Shown: positions 41,547 through 58,469 of the stretch, piece after piece
Layout: every line of letters starts with the position of its first letter
How positions within the stretch are numbered: the stretch's first letter is position 1
NCBI GenBank assembly: GCA_025927765.1
Contig: JAICKU010000004.1
Span: forward strand, 1-64,000
Source: Burkholderiales bacterium
GTDB taxonomy: Bacteria; Pseudomonadota; Gammaproteobacteria; Burkholderiales; Casimicrobiaceae
Length of the DNA stretch: 64,000 bases
Direction: 5' to 3'
Made by a program: the position numbers and the translations under genes
The notes under the pieces: model-generated
Told to the model about the DNA's origin: nothing
The model's database searches: none
What the model saw: the letters and a program-made list of their open reading frames with translations, nothing else

Positions 41547-41566
41547 TACCGTATATCCGTACGGTA
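41547..41566. promoter_or_regulatory. Putative LexA operator at lexA
   Basis: Palindrome TACCGTA-TATCCG-TACGGTA ending 3 bases before the lexA ATG. A TATATC inside it could be a -10 element, implying a very short or absent leader. The same palindrome occurs at dnaE2. It does not match the E. coli box (CTGT-N8-ACAG). Confidence 0.75.
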
Positions 41567-42288: not shown

Positions 42289-42747
42289 ATGGTTGCTCCC
42301 ATTCCCGCCGGCTATCGCAGCATCACGCCGTACCTCATGGTGCGCGGTGCCGATCGCGCGATCGCGTTCTACAGCGAAGCGTTCGGCGCGCAGGAGGTCA
42401 TGCGCTTCCCGATCCCCGGCGGCAAGATCGGCCATGCCGAAATCAAGATCGGCGATTCGTACGTGATGCTCGCCGACGAAACGAACGAATCTCCGGGCCC
42501 ACAGAGCCTCGGTGGCGTGGGTGTGAGCCTCATGCTCTACGTCGACGACGTCGACGCCACGTTCGCGCGGGCACTCGCGGCCGGGGCGGCCGAACGTCGC
42601 GCCCTCGCCGACCAGTTCTACGGCGATCGCAACGGCACGCTCGTCGATCCGTTCGGCCATGTATGGACGGTCGGCACGCATCGCGAAGACGTCTCGACGG
42701 AGGAAATGCAGCGGCGCATCGCGGCGCTCGACCCTCACGCCGGCTGA
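42289..42747 (+). CDS. VOC-superfamily (PhnB/glyoxalase-like) protein
   Basis: 152 residues: two VOC half-domains, opening ITPYLMVRGADRAIAFYSEA and ending DPFGHVWTVGTH. The PhnB-like group includes metal-dependent and metal-free members with no single function. AGGAGG precedes ATG 42289. Third-party position between lexA and imuA is unusual; it may be an SOS passenger or have its own role in detoxification together with the following GST. Confidence 0.88.
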   Translation: MVAPIPAGYRSITPYLMVRGADRAIAFYSEAFGAQEVMRFPIPGGKIGHAEIKIGDSYVMLADETNESPGPQSLGGVGVSLMLYVDDVDATFARALAAGAAERRALADQFYGDRNGTLVDPFGHVWTVGTHREDVSTEEMQRRIAALDPHAG

Positions 42748-42771
42748 TTGGCGTCACGAAAGGAGTAACGC

Positions 42772-43410
42772 ATGTACACGCTCTACGGCAAGCAGGGTGC
42801 GGGCTCGGCAGCGGTCGAGGCGGCGCTGACGCTCGCGCACGCGCCGTTTCACTTCATCGAAACGGCGTCGTGGGCGCAGAACGACGCGTATTCCGATCTC
42901 CTCGCGGTGAATCCGCTCGGGCAGATCCCCACGCTCGTGCTCGACGACGGCAGCGCGATGTCCGAAAGCGCCGCCATCCTGATGCACCTCGCCGACGCGC
43001 ATCCCGACGCAAAGCTGCTGCCGGCGAAAGCGTCGGCGCGCGCGCAGGCGCTGCGCGGCCTCGTGTTCATCGCGGCCAATTGCTACGCGGCGATCAGCAT
43101 CATCGATTTTCCCGAGCGCTGGTGCGAGAACGCCGAAGGCGACGAAGCGGTGCAGGAGCGCATCCGCAACGGCACGCGCGCGCGGCTGCATCGGCACTGG
43201 AACATGTTCGCCGACGTCTTTCCCGCCCGCCCCTGGCTCTCGGGCGAGCAGATCGGCGCGCTCGATCTCCTCGCCACCGTCGTGTCGAAATGGTCGGGTA
43301 CGCGGCCGCATCTCGAGCGCGAGCGGCCGGCGTTGTACGAAACGCTGCTGCGCGTCGAGGCGCATCCTGGCGTGGCGCCGGTGTTCGCGCGCAACTGGCC
43401 GCAAGAGTAG
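42772..43410 (+). CDS. Glutathione S-transferase family protein
   Basis: 212 residues: thioredoxin-fold N-terminal domain with the Ser/Gln glutathione site (NPLGQIPTLVLDDG, MSESAAILMHLAD) and a helical C-terminal domain (RPWLSGEQIGALDLLATV). Probably conjugates electrophiles or acts as a peroxidase. It follows the VOC gene by 24 bases. Its stop codon lies inside a GTAGGGTC palindrome. Confidence 0.9.
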   Translation: MYTLYGKQGAGSAAVEAALTLAHAPFHFIETASWAQNDAYSDLLAVNPLGQIPTLVLDDGSAMSESAAILMHLADAHPDAKLLPAKASARAQALRGLVFIAANCYAAISIIDFPERWCENAEGDEAVQERIRNGTRARLHRHWNMFADVFPARPWLSGEQIGALDLLATVVSKWSGTRPHLERERPALYETLLRVEAHPGVAPVFARNWPQE

Positions 43411-43424
43411 GGTCTGACCCTACT
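43406..43424. repeat. GTAGGGTC-N-GACCCTAC palindrome, copy 2
   Basis: AGTAGGGTC-T-GACCCTACT, same core as at 28128. It overlaps the GST stop codon, so the repeat has become part of the gene's end. It may weaken read-through from the GST gene into imuA. Confidence 0.75.
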
Positions 43425-43508
43425 TTCGTCCCGGTTGACAGCCACGCCGCATCGGTGCTCTTCGTCGCCCACACGTCCGCGGCGATTGGCATCTGCGCCT
43501 TGCCGTTC

Positions 43509-44234
43509 GTGAATCCCGCGCTTGCGCAACTGCTCTCGCACCCGGCGATCTGGCGCGGCAACGACTGCGCGCCGGAGCCTTCGAGCATCGCCACGGGATT
43601 TGCCGAGCTCGACCGTGCGCTCCCCGGCGGCGGCTGGCCACGGGGCGCGCTGACCGAGGTCGCACTCGAGCGCGAAGGCATCGGCGAATTGCGCCTCACG
43701 TTGCCGGCGCTCGCGCGGCTGCAGGCGGAAGGACGCAGCGTCGTGTTCGTGTCGCCGCCGTATCGCCCGTACGCGCCTGCGCTCGCCGCCGCGGGGCTCG
43801 ACCTGTCACGCCTTGTCGTCGTACGGAGCGTCACGGGTTCCGATGCGCTGTGGGCGTACGAGCAGGCGCTGCGCGCGCCCGAATGCGGCGCGGCGTTCGC
43901 ATGGACGGCCACGCACGACGAGCGCGTGTTGCGCCGGCTGCAGGTGGCCGCGCGCGACGGGCGCACGTGGGCCGTGCTGTGGCGGCGTCCCGAGCAGCGC
44001 GCCGGCGCGCAGGCAGCCCCGCTGCGGCTCGCGCTCGCGCCGTCGGCAGGCAGGCTCGCCGTGCGCGTCGTGAAGCGGCGCGGCGTCGAGCTCGCGCGTC
44101 CGATCGTGCTCGATCTCGCGCACGCGCCCGGCGCGCCGCTCTATCCGCTGCCCGAGGGCCGGCTGACGATGAAGCGCACGTCCCCGGCGATGCCTACGTC
44201 GCGACGCGGCCTTGCGCACCGCAAGGCATCGTGA
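43509..44234 (+). CDS. imuA: ImuA, RecA-like accessory factor of DnaE2 mutasome
   Basis: About 241 residues if started at GTG 43509 (MNPALAQLLSHPAIWRG); GTG 43455 and TTG 43500 are also in frame and no ATG is nearby. ImuA is RecA/SulA-like: ATGFAELDRALPGGGWPRGA gives a P-loop-like region without a Walker lysine, then LTEVALEREGIGELRL. Works with ImuB and DnaE2 in translesion synthesis. The stop directly abuts imuB ATG. Confidence 0.82.
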   Translation: MNPALAQLLSHPAIWRGNDCAPEPSSIATGFAELDRALPGGGWPRGALTEVALEREGIGELRLTLPALARLQAEGRSVVFVSPPYRPYAPALAAAGLDLSRLVVVRSVTGSDALWAYEQALRAPECGAAFAWTATHDERVLRRLQVAARDGRTWAVLWRRPEQRAGAQAAPLRLALAPSAGRLAVRVVKRRGVELARPIVLDLAHAPGAPLYPLPEGRLTMKRTSPAMPTSRRGLAHRKAS

Positions 44235-45704
44235 ATGCGCTACGCGTGCCTGCTGCTGCGCTCGCTCGCGCTCGACGTCTTCACGCGGGCATGCGCACCC
44301 GATGACGCGCGGCCGTTCGTCGTGTCGAGCGGCGGCCATTACCCGCGCGTCGTCGCGGCGAACGGCGTCGCACGCGTTGCCGGCATTCGCCGCGGCCAGC
44401 TGATCTCGGCCGCGCTCGCGCTCGCGCCCCACGTCACGCTGCGCGACCGCGACCTCGGCGCCGAGGAAGCAGCGCTCGGCGACGTCGCCGCGCGGCTGCT
44501 CGCGTTCACGCCCAATGCGAGCCTCGTCCCGCCCGACGCCGTCGTCGCGGAAGTCGCGCGCAGCGCCCGCCTTTTCGGTGGCGTGCCGAAGCTCGCCGAG
44601 CAACTCGGTGCGCAGGCACGATCGCTCGGCTACGACGTCGTCACCGCCGTCGCGCCTACGCCAACCGCAGCGCTCCTGCTCGCGCGCGCCGGCCGCGAGG
44701 GCTGCTTCGTCGACGCCGACACGCTCGCCTCGGCGCTCGCGCCATTGCCCCTGGCGTCGCTCGATCTCGACGCCGATGCCATTGCCACGCTCGCCGCCGC
44801 CGGCGTGGCGACGCTCGGCGAAGCGGCGCGGCTGCCGCGCGCCGGGCTCGCCCGACGTTTCGGCGCCCACGTCGTCGACACGCTCGATCGCGCGCTCGGG
44901 CGCATCGCCGATCCCCGCGTGCCGTATCGCCCGCCGCCGCGCTTCGAGCGCAAGCTCGCGCTGCCGGCGCCCGTGGAAAGCGTCGACGCGCTCCGTTTCG
45001 CCGTGCGTCGTGTGGTCGACGATCTCGCGAGCTGGCTCCTCGCGCGGGGCCTCGGCGTGCTGCGCGTCACGCTTTCGCTCGTGCACGAACGCTACCTGCG
45101 CGAGCGCGGCGTCGCGCCCACCGTCGCGAGCTTCGCGCTCGCGGCGCCCGCCCGCGAGGCGGCGCATCTCGACACGGTGCTGCGCGAACGTCTCGCGCGC
45201 ATCGTGCTGCCGGCCCCCGTCGAATCCATCGTGCTCGCGAGCGACGACACGACGCCGCTCGCCTCGCGCAACCTCGGCCTGCTGCCCGGCGACGACGCCG
45301 CCAGCGCCACGGTGCCGCTCGTCGAGCGGCTGCGCTCGCGTCTTGGCGACGAGGCGGTGATCACCCTCGGCACGCACGACGAGCATCGGCCCGAACTCGC
45401 GGGCATCGAGATCGCGCCCCGACCGGGGATGCAGGCAGCGGCATGTGATGCAAGCGGCATGCGGCCACCGCGTCCGCTGTGGCTGCTCGACGAGCCGCGC
45501 GCGCTCGGCGACGCGTTCGCCGCCAAGCCCTGGGTGCTGCGTGACGGCCCCGAGCGGATCGAGTCAGGCTGGTGGGATGGGCGCGATTGCCGCCGCGACT
45601 ATTTCGTCGCCGAAAGCGCGCACGGCAAGATCGTGTGGATCTATCGCGATCATCGCTACGGCACCGACGACGGCGAGTGGTTCATGCACGGTCTTTTCGC
45701 GTAG
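44235..45704 (+). CDS. imuB: ImuB, catalytically dead Y-family polymerase
   Basis: 489 residues. Palm, finger and little-finger layout of Y-family polymerases, but the metal-binding carboxylates are missing: the N-terminus reads ACLLLRSLALDVF and the second site AEVARSARLFGG lacks the SxDE motif. The C-terminal part (HGKIVWIYRDHRYG, WFMHGLFA) is typical of ImuB. It acts as the hub that bridges the beta clamp, ImuA and DnaE2. Confidence 0.92.
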   Translation: MRYACLLLRSLALDVFTRACAPDDARPFVVSSGGHYPRVVAANGVARVAGIRRGQLISAALALAPHVTLRDRDLGAEEAALGDVAARLLAFTPNASLVPPDAVVAEVARSARLFGGVPKLAEQLGAQARSLGYDVVTAVAPTPTAALLLARAGREGCFVDADTLASALAPLPLASLDLDADAIATLAAAGVATLGEAARLPRAGLARRFGAHVVDTLDRALGRIADPRVPYRPPPRFERKLALPAPVESVDALRFAVRRVVDDLASWLLARGLGVLRVTLSLVHERYLRERGVAPTVASFALAAPAREAAHLDTVLRERLARIVLPAPVESIVLASDDTTPLASRNLGLLPGDDAASATVPLVERLRSRLGDEAVITLGTHDEHRPELAGIEIAPRPGMQAAACDASGMRPPRPLWLLDEPRALGDAFAAKPWVLRDGPERIESGWWDGRDCRRDYFVAESAHGKIVWIYRDHRYGTDDGEWFMHGLFA

Positions 45705-46796: not shown

Positions 46797-47477
46797 ATGA
46801 ACCAGACACTGGCCAGTCACGTCGAGCGCGACGTGCGCATTGCAACCGGAGACGGCGCGCTCGCGGGCGACCTCGTCGTGCCCGCCGGCGCGAAGGCGCT
46901 CGTGCTGTTCGCGCACGGCAGCGGCAGCAGCCGCCACAGTCCGCGCAACGTGTGGGTGGCCGAGCGGCTGCATAGCGCCGCGATCGCCACGCTGCTCTTC
47001 GACCTCCTGACGCCGAACGAGGAGCAACGCGACATCGTCACGCGCGAGCACCGCTTCGACATTCCGCTGCTTGGCCGGCGCCTCGTCGACACGATCGACT
47101 GGGCGGCGACGCAGGACGACCTGTTCCCGCTGCCGCTCGGGCTCTTCGGTGCGAGCACGGGCAGCGCGGCCGCGCTGGTTGCCGCGGCGATGCGCACGGA
47201 TCGCGTGAGTGCCGTCGTCTCACGGGGGGGCCGGCCCGATCTCGCCGACGACGCATTGCCGCGCGTCGTCGCCCCGACGCTCATGATCGTCGGCGGCCGC
47301 GATGACCTCGTACTCGAGCTCAATCGGCGCGCGCTCGCGATGATGCGCTGCGACAAGCGCCTCGAAGTAGTGCCCGGTGCGACGCACCTCTTCGAGGAGC
47401 CCGGGGCGCTCGAGCGCGTGGCCGAGCTCGCGTCGGACTGGTTCGTCGAATACCTGATCGTCGAGAAGGCGAGCTGA
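46797..47477 (+). CDS. Dienelactone hydrolase-family alpha/beta hydrolase
   Basis: 226 residues: ALVLFAHGSGSSRHSPRN, nucleophile Ser in GLFGASTGSA, Asp in GGRDDLV and His in PGATHLFEEPG complete the triad. Belongs to the group regularly found beside or fused to phosphoribosyltransferases in stress-related islands. The next gene, 3 bases away, is such a phosphoribosyltransferase. Natural substrate unknown. The start is ATG 46797. Confidence 0.87.
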   Translation: MNQTLASHVERDVRIATGDGALAGDLVVPAGAKALVLFAHGSGSSRHSPRNVWVAERLHSAAIATLLFDLLTPNEEQRDIVTREHRFDIPLLGRRLVDTIDWAATQDDLFPLPLGLFGASTGSAAALVAAAMRTDRVSAVVSRGGRPDLADDALPRVVAPTLMIVGGRDDLVLELNRRALAMMRCDKRLEVVPGATHLFEEPGALERVAELASDWFVEYLIVEKAS

Positions 47478-54767: not shown

Positions 54768-54888
54768 GGATCGGCGTGGAGGCGTTGACGGGGAACGCGT
54801 CGCGCCGGCGCGAGGGCTTCGCAGGACGCGAGCGGTGGCAGCGCCGCATCTTACGTCATGCGTCATGGGGCTGGCCTTCGCGCCCCGT

Positions 54889-54910
54889 ATACCGTATATT
54901 CGTACGGTAT
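54889..54910. promoter_or_regulatory. Putative LexA operator overlapping dnaE2 start
   Basis: ATACCGTA-TATTCG-TACGGTAT, a perfect 8-bp-arm palindrome. Its last two bases are the first two of the dnaE2 ATG (54909). An internal TATATT could be the -10 with transcription starting at or next to ATG, so the message would be leaderless. Confidence 0.75.
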
Positions 54911-57900
54911 GGCATCGTCCGATCTGTTGCCGGCGTATGCCGAGCTGCACTGCCTGTCGAATTTCTCGTTCCTGCGTGGCGCGTCGCACCCGGAGGAGCT
55001 CGTCGAGCGCGCGAAGGCGCAGGGCTACGCGGCGCTCGCGCTCACCGACGAATGCACGCTCGCCGGCGTGGTGCGCGCGCATCTCGCGGCCAAGGAAGTC
55101 CAAGCCGCAGGGCCGCCCCAAGGCTTGGACCGCCCCCTGAGCGGCAGCGCAGCAGCGAAGCCGCAAGCGTGCGGGGATGCCACGGGCTTGCCGCTCGTCG
55201 TCGGCAGCGAGTTCACGCTCGCCGATCGCACGAAGCTCGTGCTGCTCGCCACCGACCGGTCGAGCTACGGCGATCTGTCGCAGCTCATCACACGCGGGCG
55301 CCGGCAGGCGAAGAAAGGTTCGTATAGGCTGACGCGCGACGACGTCGCGCAATGCGCGTCGCGCTGCCTCGCGCTGTGGCTGCCGGCGTTCGATCTGCGC
55401 GCGGCGGAGGTCGCCGAACCGTTGCTCGCGGCCGCCGCATGGCTGCGCGACGTGTTTGCCGATCGCGCCTGGATCGGCGTCGAATTGCTCGCGCAGGCCG
55501 GCGACGAAGCACGGCTCGCGCAATGCCAGGCGCTGTCGCAGCGCACGGCGCTCCCGCTCGTCGCGGCCGGCGACGTGCACATGCACGTGCGCGCGCGCCG
55601 CGCGCTGCAGGACACGCTCACCGCCATCCGCCTGCGCACGCCGCTCGCCGCATGCGGGCAGGCACTGCATCCGAACGGCGAACGACATCTGCGTTCACGC
55701 GCGCGGCTGGCGAGCGTGTATCCGCCCGAGCTCCTCGCCGAAACCGTGCGCATCGCCGAACGCTGCCGCTTCTCGCTCGACGAGCTGCGCTACGAATATC
55801 CGGACGAGATCGTCCCGCCGGGCGAAACGCCCGCGTCGTGGCTGCGCAAGCTGGTCGAGCGCGGCCTCTCGGAGAGGTATGGACATCGGGGTCAGGGACA
55901 TCGGGGTCAGAGCGGTAAGTATTCGAGCGAGGCGGGACATCGGGGTCAGGAGGCGGGACATCGGGGTCAGGAGGCGGGACATCGGGGTCAGGAGGCGGGA
56001 CATCGGGGTCAGGAGGCGGGACATCGGGGTCAGAGCGGTAAGTATTCGAGCGAAGCGTGCTCGAACACTTACCGCTCTGACCCCGATGTCCCGCCTCCCG
56101 ATGTCCCGCCTCCCGATGTCCCGCCTCCCGATGTCCTGCTTCCCGATGTCCTGCTTCGCGGCGACAGCGCATTTCGCTGCACGAGCGTCCCCGCGAACGT
56201 GCGCGCGCTGATCGAGCACGAGCTCGCGCTGATCGCCGGGCTGCGCTACGAGCCGTACTTCCTCACCGTGCACGACATCGTCGCGTTCGCACGCGCGCAG
56301 AAGATCCTCTGCCAGGGGCGCGGGTCGGCGGCGAATTCGGCCGTGTGCTATGCGTTGCACATCACCGAGGTCGATCCTTCGCGCAGCGAAATGCTGTTCG
56401 AGCGCTTCATCAGCAAGGAGCGCAACGAGCCGCCGGACATCGACGTCGATTTCGAGCATCAGCGGCGCGAGGAAGTGATGCAGTACGTGTACGGCAAGTA
56501 CGGGCGCCATCGTGCAGCGCTCGCTGCAACGCTCATCACGTACCGGCCGAAGAGCGCCGTGCGCGACGTCGGCCGCGCGTTCGGCCTGGATCTCGCGCAA
56601 CTCGATCGCCTCGCCGGCGTGTTCGCATGGTGGGACGGCCGCGCGATTCCGCCCGAGCGCGTCCGCGAAGCGGGCTTCGATCCCGCGCATCCGAAAGTGC
56701 GACGCATCATCACGATGGCGGGACAGTTGCTCGGCTTTCCGCGGCACCTGTCGCAGCACGTCGGCGGCTTCGTCATCGCGCGCGATTCGCTCGAGCGCAT
56801 GGTGCCGGTGCAGAACGCGGCGATGGCCGATCGCACGGTGATCGAATGGGACAAGGACGATCTCGACGCGATGGGCCTTCTGAAGGTCGACTGCTTGGCG
56901 CTCGGCATGCTCTCGGCGATCCGGCGCGCGCTCGACCTCGTTTCGGCCTATCGCGGCACGAAGCTCGCGATGCAGGACATTCCGCCGGAAGATCCTGCCG
57001 TATACCGGATGATCCAGGACGCCGACACGATCGGCGTGTTCCAGATCGAGTCGCGCGCGCAGCAGTCGATGCTGCCGCGATTGAAGCCTGCCACGTTCTA
57101 CGACCTCGTGATCGAGGTCGCCATCGTACGTCCCGGGCCCATCCAGGGCGGCATGGTGCATCCGTACCTCAAGCGCCGGCAGAAACTCGAACCCGTCACC
57201 TACCCGAGCGACGCCGTGAAGGCGGTGCTCGAGCGCACGCTCGGCGTGCCGATCTTCCAGGAGCAGGTGATGCAGCTCGCGATCGTCGCGGCGGGGTTCA
57301 CGCCCGGCGAGGCGGATCGGCTGCGCCGCTCGATGGCGGCGTGGAAGCGCAAGGGCGGCCTGCAGCATTTCGAGCAGCGCCTCGTCGAAGGGATGGGCGC
57401 GCGCGGCTACAGCGAATCGTTCGCGCGGCAGATCTTCGAGCAGATCCTGGGCTTCGGCGAATACGGCTTTCCCGAGTCGCATTCGGCGTCGTTCGCGCTG
57501 CTCGTCTACGTATCGTCGTGGCTTAAGGCTTACGAGCCCGCGGCGTTCTGCGCGGCACTGCTCAACTCGCAACCGATGGGCTTCTACGCGCCGGCGCAGC
57601 TCGTCGCCGATGCGAAGCGGCATGGCGTGGACGTGCGGCCGCCCGACGTCACTGTGAGCGAGTGGGACTGCACGCTCGAAAACGCGGGTCAGAGATGCAT
57701 TTCCGGGAACAGCGTCGGCAATGCGAATGCCGAACGCGGGAAATGCATCTCTGACCCGCATTTTCCCGTCCTGCGCCTCGGTTTGCGCCTCGTCCGCGGG
57801 CTCACCGAAGCCGGTGCGCAGCGCATTGTCGTCGCACGTCACGAGCGCGCGTTCATCGACATCGCCGATCTCGCGCATCGCGCGAAGCTCGACGCGCGCG

Positions 57901-58469
57901 ACCTCGGCGCGCTCGCCGACGGTGATGCGCTCGCGTCGCTTGCCGGGCATCGCCACGACGCCGTATGGAGCGTCGCCGGCGTCGAGCGGCTGCCCGCCCT
58001 TCTCGCCGGCAGCGCACGCGACGAAGTACGTCCGCAGCTGCGTGCGCCTACTGAAGGCCAGGACATTGTCGCCGACTACCGCCGCCTCGGCCTCACGCTG
58101 CGCCGCCACCCGCTCGCGCTGCTGCGGCCGCAATTGCAGAAGCGACGCCTCGCGACCGCCGACGACATCCGCGCCGCACCGCATGGCCGCATCGTGCGCA
58201 CCGCCGGCATCGTGATCGGGCGGCAGCGGCCGGACACCGCGAGCGGCGTGGTGTTCGTGACGCTCGAGGACGAGACCGGAGCGACGAACGTGATCGTGTG
58301 GCGCGATCTCGGCGATCGTCAGCGGCGCGAGCTGCTGGGCGCGCGTCTTCTCGCCGTGTACGGCCGCGTCGAGCGCGAAGGGAGTGTCGTGCACATCCTC
58401 GCCGGGCGCCTCGTCGACCTGACGCCGATGCTCGGTGCGCTCCCCACGCGCTCGCGGGATTTCCACTGA
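54909..58469 (+). CDS. dnaE2: Error-prone DNA polymerase DnaE2
   Basis: 1186 residues; relatives have about 1020-1080. Alpha-subunit polymerase of translesion synthesis. PHP domain (YAELHCLSNFSFLRGASHPEE), palm with catalytic Asp triad (FISKERNEPPDIDVDFEHQR), finger (IFQEQVMQLAIVAAGFTPGE), HhH and OB domains. Three in-frame insertions of dispersed repeats (residues about 64-92, 324-416, 924-952) account for the extra length. All catalytic motifs outside these are intact, so it is likely active. Driven by a LexA-type operator at its start codon. Confidence 0.93.
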   Translation: MASSDLLPAYAELHCLSNFSFLRGASHPEELVERAKAQGYAALALTDECTLAGVVRAHLAAKEVQAAGPPQGLDRPLSGSAAAKPQACGDATGLPLVVGSEFTLADRTKLVLLATDRSSYGDLSQLITRGRRQAKKGSYRLTRDDVAQCASRCLALWLPAFDLRAAEVAEPLLAAAAWLRDVFADRAWIGVELLAQAGDEARLAQCQALSQRTALPLVAAGDVHMHVRARRALQDTLTAIRLRTPLAACGQALHPNGERHLRSRARLASVYPPELLAETVRIAERCRFSLDELRYEYPDEIVPPGETPASWLRKLVERGLSERYGHRGQGHRGQSGKYSSEAGHRGQEAGHRGQEAGHRGQEAGHRGQEAGHRGQSGKYSSEACSNTYRSDPDVPPPDVPPPDVPPPDVLLPDVLLRGDSAFRCTSVPANVRALIEHELALIAGLRYEPYFLTVHDIVAFARAQKILCQGRGSAANSAVCYALHITEVDPSRSEMLFERFISKERNEPPDIDVDFEHQRREEVMQYVYGKYGRHRAALAATLITYRPKSAVRDVGRAFGLDLAQLDRLAGVFAWWDGRAIPPERVREAGFDPAHPKVRRIITMAGQLLGFPRHLSQHVGGFVIARDSLERMVPVQNAAMADRTVIEWDKDDLDAMGLLKVDCLALGMLSAIRRALDLVSAYRGTKLAMQDIPPEDPAVYRMIQDADTIGVFQIESRAQQSMLPRLKPATFYDLVIEVAIVRPGPIQGGMVHPYLKRRQKLEPVTYPSDAVKAVLERTLGVPIFQEQVMQLAIVAAGFTPGEADRLRRSMAAWKRKGGLQHFEQRLVEGMGARGYSESFARQIFEQILGFGEYGFPESHSASFALLVYVSSWLKAYEPAAFCAALLNSQPMGFYAPAQLVADAKRHGVDVRPPDVTVSEWDCTLENAGQRCISGNSVGNANAERGKCISDPHFPVLRLGLRLVRGLTEAGAQRIVVARHERAFIDIADLAHRAKLDARDLGALADGDALASLAGHRHDAVWSVAGVERLPALLAGSARDEVRPQLRAPTEGQDIVADYRRLGLTLRRHPLALLRPQLQKRRLATADDIRAAPHGRIVRTAGIVIGRQRPDTASGVVFVTLEDETGATNVIVWRDLGDRQRRELLGARLLAVYGRVEREGSVVHILAGRLVDLTPMLGALPTRSRDFH
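55100..55185. repeat. GC-rich dispersed repeat inside dnaE2 (PHP domain)
   Basis: CCGCAGGGCCGCCCCAAGGC, then CGCCCCCTGAGCGGCAGCGC and AAGCGTGCGGGG: same family as the repeat at 49180. Translated in frame as about 28 residues (QAAGPPQGLDRPLSGSAAAK...) between AAKEV and GLPLVVGSEF, which are adjacent in related proteins. Confidence 0.7.
55880..56157. repeat. Nested inverted and tandem repeat inside dnaE2
   Basis: Left side: five 21-base units (GAGGCGGGACATCGGGGTCA plus G) at 55929-56033. Centre: 39-bp arms 56013-56051 and 56059-56097 with one mismatch and a 7-base loop. Right side: five 15-base units (CCGATGTCCCGCCTC, last two with T changes) at 56083-56157. All units are multiples of three and no stop occurs, giving EAGHRGQ and PPDVP protein repeats. 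Confidence 0.9.
57678..57765. repeat. REP-like palindrome inside dnaE2
   Basis: Perfect 21-bp arms GCGGGTCAGAGATGCATTTC(C) at 57684-57704 and 57739-57759, extended by GAAAA/TTTTC. A second small hairpin CGGCA...TGCCG is nested inside. Encodes about 27 residues (ENAGQRCISGNSVGNANAER...) between conserved WDCTLE and LRLGLRLVRGL. Confidence 0.85.

Follow-up and report, generated by a model that had tools for sequence, protein, structure and literature searches.

The stretch analysed here, called the window throughout, comprises positions 1 to 64,000 of contig JAICKU010000004.1 (GenBank assembly GCA_025927765.1) from a Burkholderiales bacterium of the Casimicrobiaceae. It contains a dnaE2 (imuC) gene, encoding an error-prone C-family DNA polymerase, into which three dispersed repeats are inserted in frame (Table 1). 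Two of these repeats are of the repetitive extragenic palindromic (REP) type. The open reading frame of dnaE2 spans positions 54858-58469 and its likely start is at 54909, with a putative operator immediately 5' of it. The product matches the NCBIfam model NF004225/PRK05672 for error-prone DNA polymerases (1494.3 bits, cut-off 939) and has the domain order PHP, polymerase, finger, HhH, OB. It is a second copy beside the replicative DnaE1, which is also encoded in the genome, above cut-off (G000:C63:226899-230348; G000 is the window genome). Its usual partners imuA and imuB lie inside the window, about 9-12 kb upstream. Judged by its sequence, the protein is a member of the DnaE2/ImuC family, to which it owes its presumed role in damage-induced mutagenesis.

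Table 1. Positions in the window of dnaE2, its repeat blocks and the associated regulatory genes (REP, repetitive extragenic palindromic sequence; RAYT, REP-associated tyrosine transposase)
Feature	Position	Strand	Evidence or location
dnaE2 (imuC), error-prone C-family DNA polymerase, 1186 aa, three in-frame repeat insertions	54909..58469	+	profile match, domains, fold
Block 1: GC-rich non-palindromic dispersed repeat, reads ..PPQG..PLSGSAAAKPQACG..	55100..55185	+	within the PHP match, residues ~64-93
Block 2: REP array, family beside RAYT-2 (GACATCGGGGTCAGAGCGGTAAGT), tandem units	55880..56157	+	between PHP and polymerase domains, residues ~324-417
Block 2, 21-nt tandem units (GAGGCGGGACATCGGGGTCAG)	55929..56033	+	repeat analysis
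Block 2, near-perfect hairpin: 40-nt arms, one mismatch, loop 7	56012..56098		hairpin scan
Block 2, 15-nt tandem units (CCCGATGTCCCGCCT), final copies diverged	56082..56160	+	repeat analysis
Block 3: REP dimer, family beside RAYT-1 (GCGGGTCAGAGATGCATTTC)	57678..57765		between fingers and HhH region, residues ~924-952
Putative operator ACCGTATATTCGTACGGT abutting the dnaE2 start codon	54891..54908		one of two exact genome matches
Second operator copy, before lexA-imuA-imuB	41548..41565		exact match
lexA-type repressor gene, 218 aa	41570..42226	+	TIGR00498, 226 bits, cut-off 111
imuA, 523-aa open reading frame, ImuA match at residues 296-474	42663..44234	+	NF033429, 207.6 bits, cut-off 150
imuB, Y-family-like	44235..45704	+	PF00817 match at G000:C99:44310-44681, above cut-off

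A preliminary description of this DNA had placed three repeat blocks in dnaE2, none of them breaking the frame. Both points hold, and the limits then given are good to a base or two; they are not exact, 86 + 278 + 88 nt being no multiple of 3. Block 1 folds with z -0.9, that is, with no significant hairpin. Block 2 contains a 42-nt reference seven times, mostly 21 nt apart, and a 34-nt reference five times, 15 nt apart. The near-perfect hairpin with tandem repeats that had been remarked in one of the insertions belongs to this block; the repeat analysis gives it 43-nt arms at 95%, and the predicted RNA fold of positions 56009-56101 reaches -86.2 kcal/mol (z -15.5). In block 3, the hairpin GAAATGCGGGTCAGAGATGCATTTC has 27-nt arms at 96% and an RNA fold with z -9.5. 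Only three hairpins in the 64-kb window exceed the scan threshold, and two of them are blocks 2 and 3. An Rfam scan across the window returned a single tRNA at the gathering threshold and nothing else. The three repeats had been called unrelated and either GC-rich or palindromic. The first statement is correct for block 1, but blocks 2 and 3 have a GGGTCAGAG core in common, and they are, from their sequences, two REP families of one kind, block 1 being a different repeat. The second fits the strong hairpins of blocks 2 and 3 and the GC-richness of block 1, which forms no strong hairpin.

In relatives (numbered G001 onwards), the loops corresponding to all three blocks are short and empty in G003, G007, and G008, as are those corresponding to blocks 1 and 2 in G010. 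The blocks are therefore insertions, and conserved DnaE2 residues, which the preliminary description had allowed for as another origin of the blocks, are not what these close relatives have at the sites. An AlphaFold2 model of DnaE2, run on a 75-sequence alignment, has a mean predicted local distance difference test score (pLDDT) of 83.8 and a predicted template modelling score of 0.84, and its fold resembles that of PolIII alpha subunits (2hpi, 3e0d). Segments with pLDDT below 50 are residues 1-3, 73-91 (block 1), 329-413 (block 2), 742-748, and 929-948 (block 3). In this model, all three blocks are low-confidence loops of an otherwise confidently predicted polymerase.

All three blocks have further copies in the genome. 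Block 1 matches 8 other places (expect value ≤ 0.001), the block-2 family, centred on CGGGGTCAGAGCGGTAAGT, about 15, and the block-3 motif is matched 38 times on each strand in 4.0 Mb, against 0 matches of a reversed-pattern control. Two Y1 (RAYT) transposase matches exceed the cut-off of Pfam PF01797 in this genome, both on contig C111. Copies of the block-3 repeat stand on both sides of RAYT-1 and copies of the block-2 repeat on both sides of RAYT-2. The two genes are about 14 kb apart on that contig, RAYT-1 (G000:C111:6941-10353; L354, L001) lying directly downstream of uvrA. Blocks 2 and 3 thus combine the features of RAYT-associated REPs: they are short imperfect palindromes with many copies, mostly extragenic, that flank a Y1 gene. 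On this sequence evidence they are filed as such, no membership of the GTAG superfamily being claimed, and the two RAYTs, each a single-copy gene, most likely mobilised them in trans. Block 1 does not group with them, given its z of -0.9 and the absence of all 9 of its places from the RAYT contig. In five of the 8 other copies of block 1, a GSAAAKP-like frame, the one used in dnaE2, continues into a downstream coding-like region, and one more copy does so via a different frame. At L118, L119, L121, L122, and L123, repeats of the block-1 family enter the downstream coding-like region in frame, as if adding an N-terminal peptide.

Outside dnaE2, the block repeats mostly avoid genes. Other copies were assigned to reading frames by a codon score that is positive for all three dnaE2 blocks and requires 90 nt of flanking sequence on either side. 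Since 8 of the 99 other copies are too close to a contig end, the counts are over 91 testable copies, with frames below 100 aa missed. An earlier test, based on GC content by codon position, was dropped, having missed block 3 as a positive control. A copy falls within a reading frame in 0 of 33 testable cases for the block-3 family (41 places besides dnaE2 counted, 35 examined), 1 of 11 for the block-2 family, and 0 of 8 for the block-1 family. The same scoring was applied to the GGGTCAGA-type REP dimers of four relatives, of which the following were examined among the matches listed: 13 of 14 in G016 (the other one is in dnaE2), 8 of 8 in G015, 14 of 15 in G008, and 5 of 11 in G004. Among these listed matches, two of the 39 testable dimers are in a reading frame, one in purH of G016 (L268) and one in the gene of a VIT/VWA sortase target of G008 (L292), which speaks against a special role of dnaE2. 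The one block-2-family copy within a frame is in the window genome, where metX and metW read as one 635-aa frame over this REP, an apparent in-frame gene fusion (L033:906-2810; G000:C20, ~47109-47191).

The insertions recur across the genus. Among 22 same-genus genomes, the 18 whose dnaE2 frame reaches 700 aa or more were counted; G001, G012, G018, and G020, with dnaE2 pieces below 700 aa, were excluded, and G004, G005, G013, and G014 are partial. An alignment-based count overlooks inserts at places where half of the genomes have residues, block 3 included, and an alignment-free hairpin scan was therefore used as the main count. It finds 22 strong hairpins in the dnaE2 genes of 13 of the 18 genomes (59.7 kb scanned). 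The scan in turn overlooks block 1, a CCCTCTCCCC-type insert of G002, and one insert of G005, which bring the total to 25 inserts. Four other genes served as controls and gave 1 hairpin in 50 copies (143 kb; DnaE1 1/8, UvrA 0/18, Mfd 0/10, ImuB 0/14), the sole one, in the DnaE1 gene of G002, having a GC-rich arm of 17 nt. The difference from dnaE2 has a Fisher p of 3.5e-9, related genomes being treated as independent. For full hits, the match spans of three controls are uniform in the genus, at 3414-3468 nt for DnaE1 (17 genomes), 2775-2802 nt for Mfd (14 genomes), and 2760-2799 nt for UvrA (16 genomes).

REPs are the type of repeat that breaks assemblies, the window genome consists of 148 contigs, and most relatives are fragmented, so that misplacement of repeats into dnaE2 by assembly or binning has to be considered. 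The inserts, however, lie inside contigs and keep the frame. In addition, hairpins recur, in genome-specific versions, in 13 separate assemblies, including those of G015 and G016 with only ~10 and ~30 contigs. An artefact is for these reasons hardly credible.

Mapped on the conserved core of dnaE2, the hairpins occupy about four positions, ~139, 294, 554, and 798, with block 1 near 66. The inserts found at a shared loop are mostly different repeats from genome to genome, and at least six kinds can be told apart by eye. Multi-copy status is established for the repeats of the window genome; the repeats of G002, G004, G005, G006, G017, and G019 that are not of the GGGTCAGA type are known from dnaE2 itself. 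The inserts of G005 and G017 at position 294 look enough alike to be regarded as inherited, and those of G002 and G004 at position 554 are perhaps inherited too; the hairpin totals are counts of inserts and may include inherited ones. Hairpin-free inserts at the same loops in G010 and G011 look, from their sequences, like decayed older repeats. In the dnaE2 of G009 (L307), a 424-aa insert at core position 726, with C as first residue and HN as last ones, precedes the SH of a PESH motif and is intein-like.

The presence of a hairpin in dnaE2 is predicted by the REP load of the genome. Among the matches listed, GGGTCAGA-type dimers occur in 11 genomes, every one of which has a dnaE2 hairpin, vs. 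2 of the 7 without dimers (Fisher p 0.0025). G005 has such dimers but a dnaE2 hairpin of another kind, and the two dimer-free genomes with a hairpin likewise carry other repeats. Outside the genus, 21 relatives and 80 named genomes were scanned in the same way, and 3 and 4 of them, respectively, have dnaE2 hairpins, one of the latter four (L193) being GC-rich and perhaps due to chance; these low frequencies again argue against dnaE2 being special. At the block-3 loop of distant dnaE2 genes (L128, L135, L165, L171), sequences of the CCCTCTCCCC, GCCAAG, and TTCGACAGGCTCAG types and a GGGGTCAGAG hairpin are observed.

This distribution invites the view that RAYT-driven insertion has a preference for the DNA of dnaE2 as such, recognising a short target motif or single-stranded stretches, in-frame copies then surviving in loops. 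Insertion must indeed be frequent, since the tree neighbours G002 and G016, with four and three inserts, have none of the seven in common. Moreover, dnaE2 contains 0.369 hairpins per kb, 13 times the 0.027 per kb found by the same scan in 50 control-gene loci (7 hairpins in 255 kb). However, the several kinds of repeat, some of them without a GGGTCAGA core and one, block 1, not even palindromic, are unlike the target choice of a single transposase. When a strict pattern is applied to G004, G008, G015, and G016, the matches listed comprise 48 dimers, of which a single one is in dnaE2 (G016:C8:95177), because the remaining copies in dnaE2 have lengthened loops or altered arms; this count also weighs against anything particular to dnaE2. 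Biased insertion is thus unlikely. The claim that the REP density of dnaE2 exceeds that of intergenic DNA was given up. Of the seven hairpins in the control loci, six (0.054 per kb) fall in the ~112 kb that surround the control genes and, if 10-15% of these ~112 kb is assumed to be intergenic, the two densities are about equal. For this reason, a little weight shifts from targeting or benefit to tolerance, which becomes the likeliest cause.

Weak selection on dnaE2 had been offered as one reason for the insertions; on this reading, the gene decays and accumulates junk. In its favour, the strict cut-off leaves 17 of 61 genomes without a dnaE2 match, many of them being fragmented drafts. The rates of nonsynonymous substitution (dN) point the other way. 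In core codons, the dN values of dnaE2 and DnaE1 are 0.145 and 0.139 for the pair G000-G017, 0.168 and 0.190 for G000-G016, 0.171 and 0.170 for G000-G008, 0.169 and 0.194 for G000-G010, and 0.178 and 0.205 for G000-G002; the pair G000-G006 goes in the opposite direction (0.258 and 0.213). For the G000 pairs printed, dN is 0.36-0.46 for ImuB, 0.08-0.12 for UvrA, and 0.15-0.19 for Mfd. The core of dnaE2 thus evolves at a rate close to that of DnaE1 and similar to that of Mfd, UvrA being slower and ImuB about twice as fast, and ImuB is nevertheless free of hairpins in 14 genomes. The ratio of dN to synonymous substitution is 0.18-0.25 in the six closest pairs, dnaE2 has no internal stop codons, and its operator is kept. 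Since the core behaves like that of DnaE1, weak selection does not explain the insertions, and decay of the gene is very improbable.

Another reason suggested at the outset was tolerance of repeats in damage-induced genes. The motif ACCGTATA-N5-ACGG has exactly two matches in the genome, ~13 kb apart, one before lexA-imuA-imuB (41548) and one before dnaE2 (54891). Each of the 16 same-genus loci that could be anchored has an exact or near copy 5' of its dnaE2. The window therefore has the elements of a LexA2 regulon, namely a LexA-type repressor and the same predicted operator before its gene and before dnaE2. From these sequences, dnaE2 appears to be under a putative LexA-type operator that it has in common with lexA-imuA-imuB only, and repression by this LexA is probable. 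As for imuA, the 523-aa frame with its restricted match (Table 1) implies that the protein has a long N-terminal part or else starts further downstream. The suggestion holds for the operator, which dnaE2 does have, but imuB, placed behind the other copy, is not hit. Damage control alone is consequently not the reason.

We consider it probable that three mobile repeats were inserted singly into loops of a working dnaE2 and were kept through tolerance combined with timing. REPs would spread, and most copies landing inside genes would be lost. Each repeat would have entered a dnaE2 loop separately and been retained as long as it was in frame and without stop codons. The ribosome would then read the three blocks as disordered linkers at places where the length of the DnaE2 chain varies, that is, inside the PHP domain, between PHP and the polymerase core, and between the fingers and the HhH region. 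With dnaE2 shut by a LexA-type repressor save after damage, a new in-frame insertion would be cheap, and the mostly silent state of the gene would let copies at variable loops persist. In this way, the dnaE2 loops could absorb repeats about as freely as intergenic DNA does, rare use still keeping the core conserved. The earlier idea of neutral linkers finds support here, as the blocks occupy length-variable loops of low predicted confidence and the core is intact.

Several observations weigh against this account of tolerance plus timing. Tolerance alone should have filled imuB too, the linkers of which also vary, yet the 16 imuB inserts of at least 8 aa include no hairpin, vs. 15 of 26 for dnaE2 (p 0.0001). 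That the model has low confidence at the inserts is in part to be expected, since the alignment has no homologues of them. Finally, the control set consists of four genes only, and no transposase was found for block 1.

A benefit of the inserts would account for the choice of dnaE2 in another manner, hairpins or linkers being favoured there, for instance as a brake on the synthesis or activity of a mutagenic polymerase. Two of the window inserts are predicted to form very stable RNA hairpins, recurrence in 13 of 18 genomes goes with a conserved core, and the dose of dnaE2 can vary apart from that of imuAB because dnaE2 has its own operator. Altered activity of REP-tagged repair proteins was also speculated upon in a 2013 paper (PMC3733652). 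Against this stands the variability of the inserts in reading frame, position, repeat kind, and hairpin strength. Furthermore, 5 of the 18 genomes have no hairpin at all, block 1 has no strong one, hairpin-free inserts occupy the same loops, and the density shows no clear excess over intergenic DNA. A benefit is accordingly quite unlikely. A broader proposal, that in this genus dnaE2 loops serve as REP sites through active targeting or selection and so link REP/RAYT systems with LexA-controlled mutagenesis, through a removable brake on dose, say, or REP movement at gaps where the polymerase complex works, is unlikely.

If insertion is neutral, dnaE2 shows naturally at which places a C-family polymerase tolerates extra length; if insertion is not neutral, mobile repeats may tune the mutation rate. 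In either case, the question raised is why dnaE2 keeps collecting repeats far oftener than the four comparison genes, and the genus allows the target choice of RAYTs to be read from sister genomes. An earlier remark, that REPs are oddly frequent in repair genes, becomes testable with one gene, fixed loops, several repeats, a conserved core, and controls that are spared, one of them under the same predicted operator.

That remark belongs to the closest precedent. According to the available text of Di Nocera et al. (2013; PMC3733652), REPs of the GTAG/CGTC type occur within genes, many of them involved in replication or repair and DnaE2, UvrA, and RecB included; mutator effects were speculated upon, flexible linkers or loops were proposed as harmless sites, and some genes are the sole REP-tagged genes of their species. 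The palindromic repeats described here resemble these REPs in sitting in a repair and replication gene, DnaE2. A literature search, made mostly without full texts, found this to be the only report naming REPs in DnaE2. In the part of the paper that was available, the same-site case is recB in two Xanthomonas, the sites being otherwise different, whereas here the same dnaE2 loops are used in 13 of 18 genomes and by several repeat kinds, a recurrence that looks new. Relative to that text, the present analysis adds recurrent insertion at fixed loops, a set of control genes, a comparison of rates, and a connection through the operator. REPIN/RAYT systems, as far as the source available describes them (PMC3116915), consist of inverted REP pairs, primarily extragenic, with one family per single-copy RAYT. 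Each REP family here likewise adjoins one single-copy RAYT and its copies are mostly intergenic; in contrast, blocks 2 and 3 are inside coding sequence. Rickettsia palindromic elements (RPEs) are also palindromic mobile repeats found in frame in protein genes (PMC10969869). In the portion of that work at hand, the genes hit by RPEs are numerous and unrelated, and the elements code for a conserved peptide, whereas the present REPs use more than one reading frame and are found again and again in a single gene; the two are likened by description only. With regard to control, the LexA2 cassette of Pseudomonas putida has lexA, imuA, imuB, and imuC under one kind of operator, and the excerpt available indicates that a separately located imuC with a box of its own was already described for other bacteria (PMC3901139). 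By comparison with that account, the imuC gene of the window, dnaE2, stands ~9 kb from imuB with its own copy of the same kind of operator.

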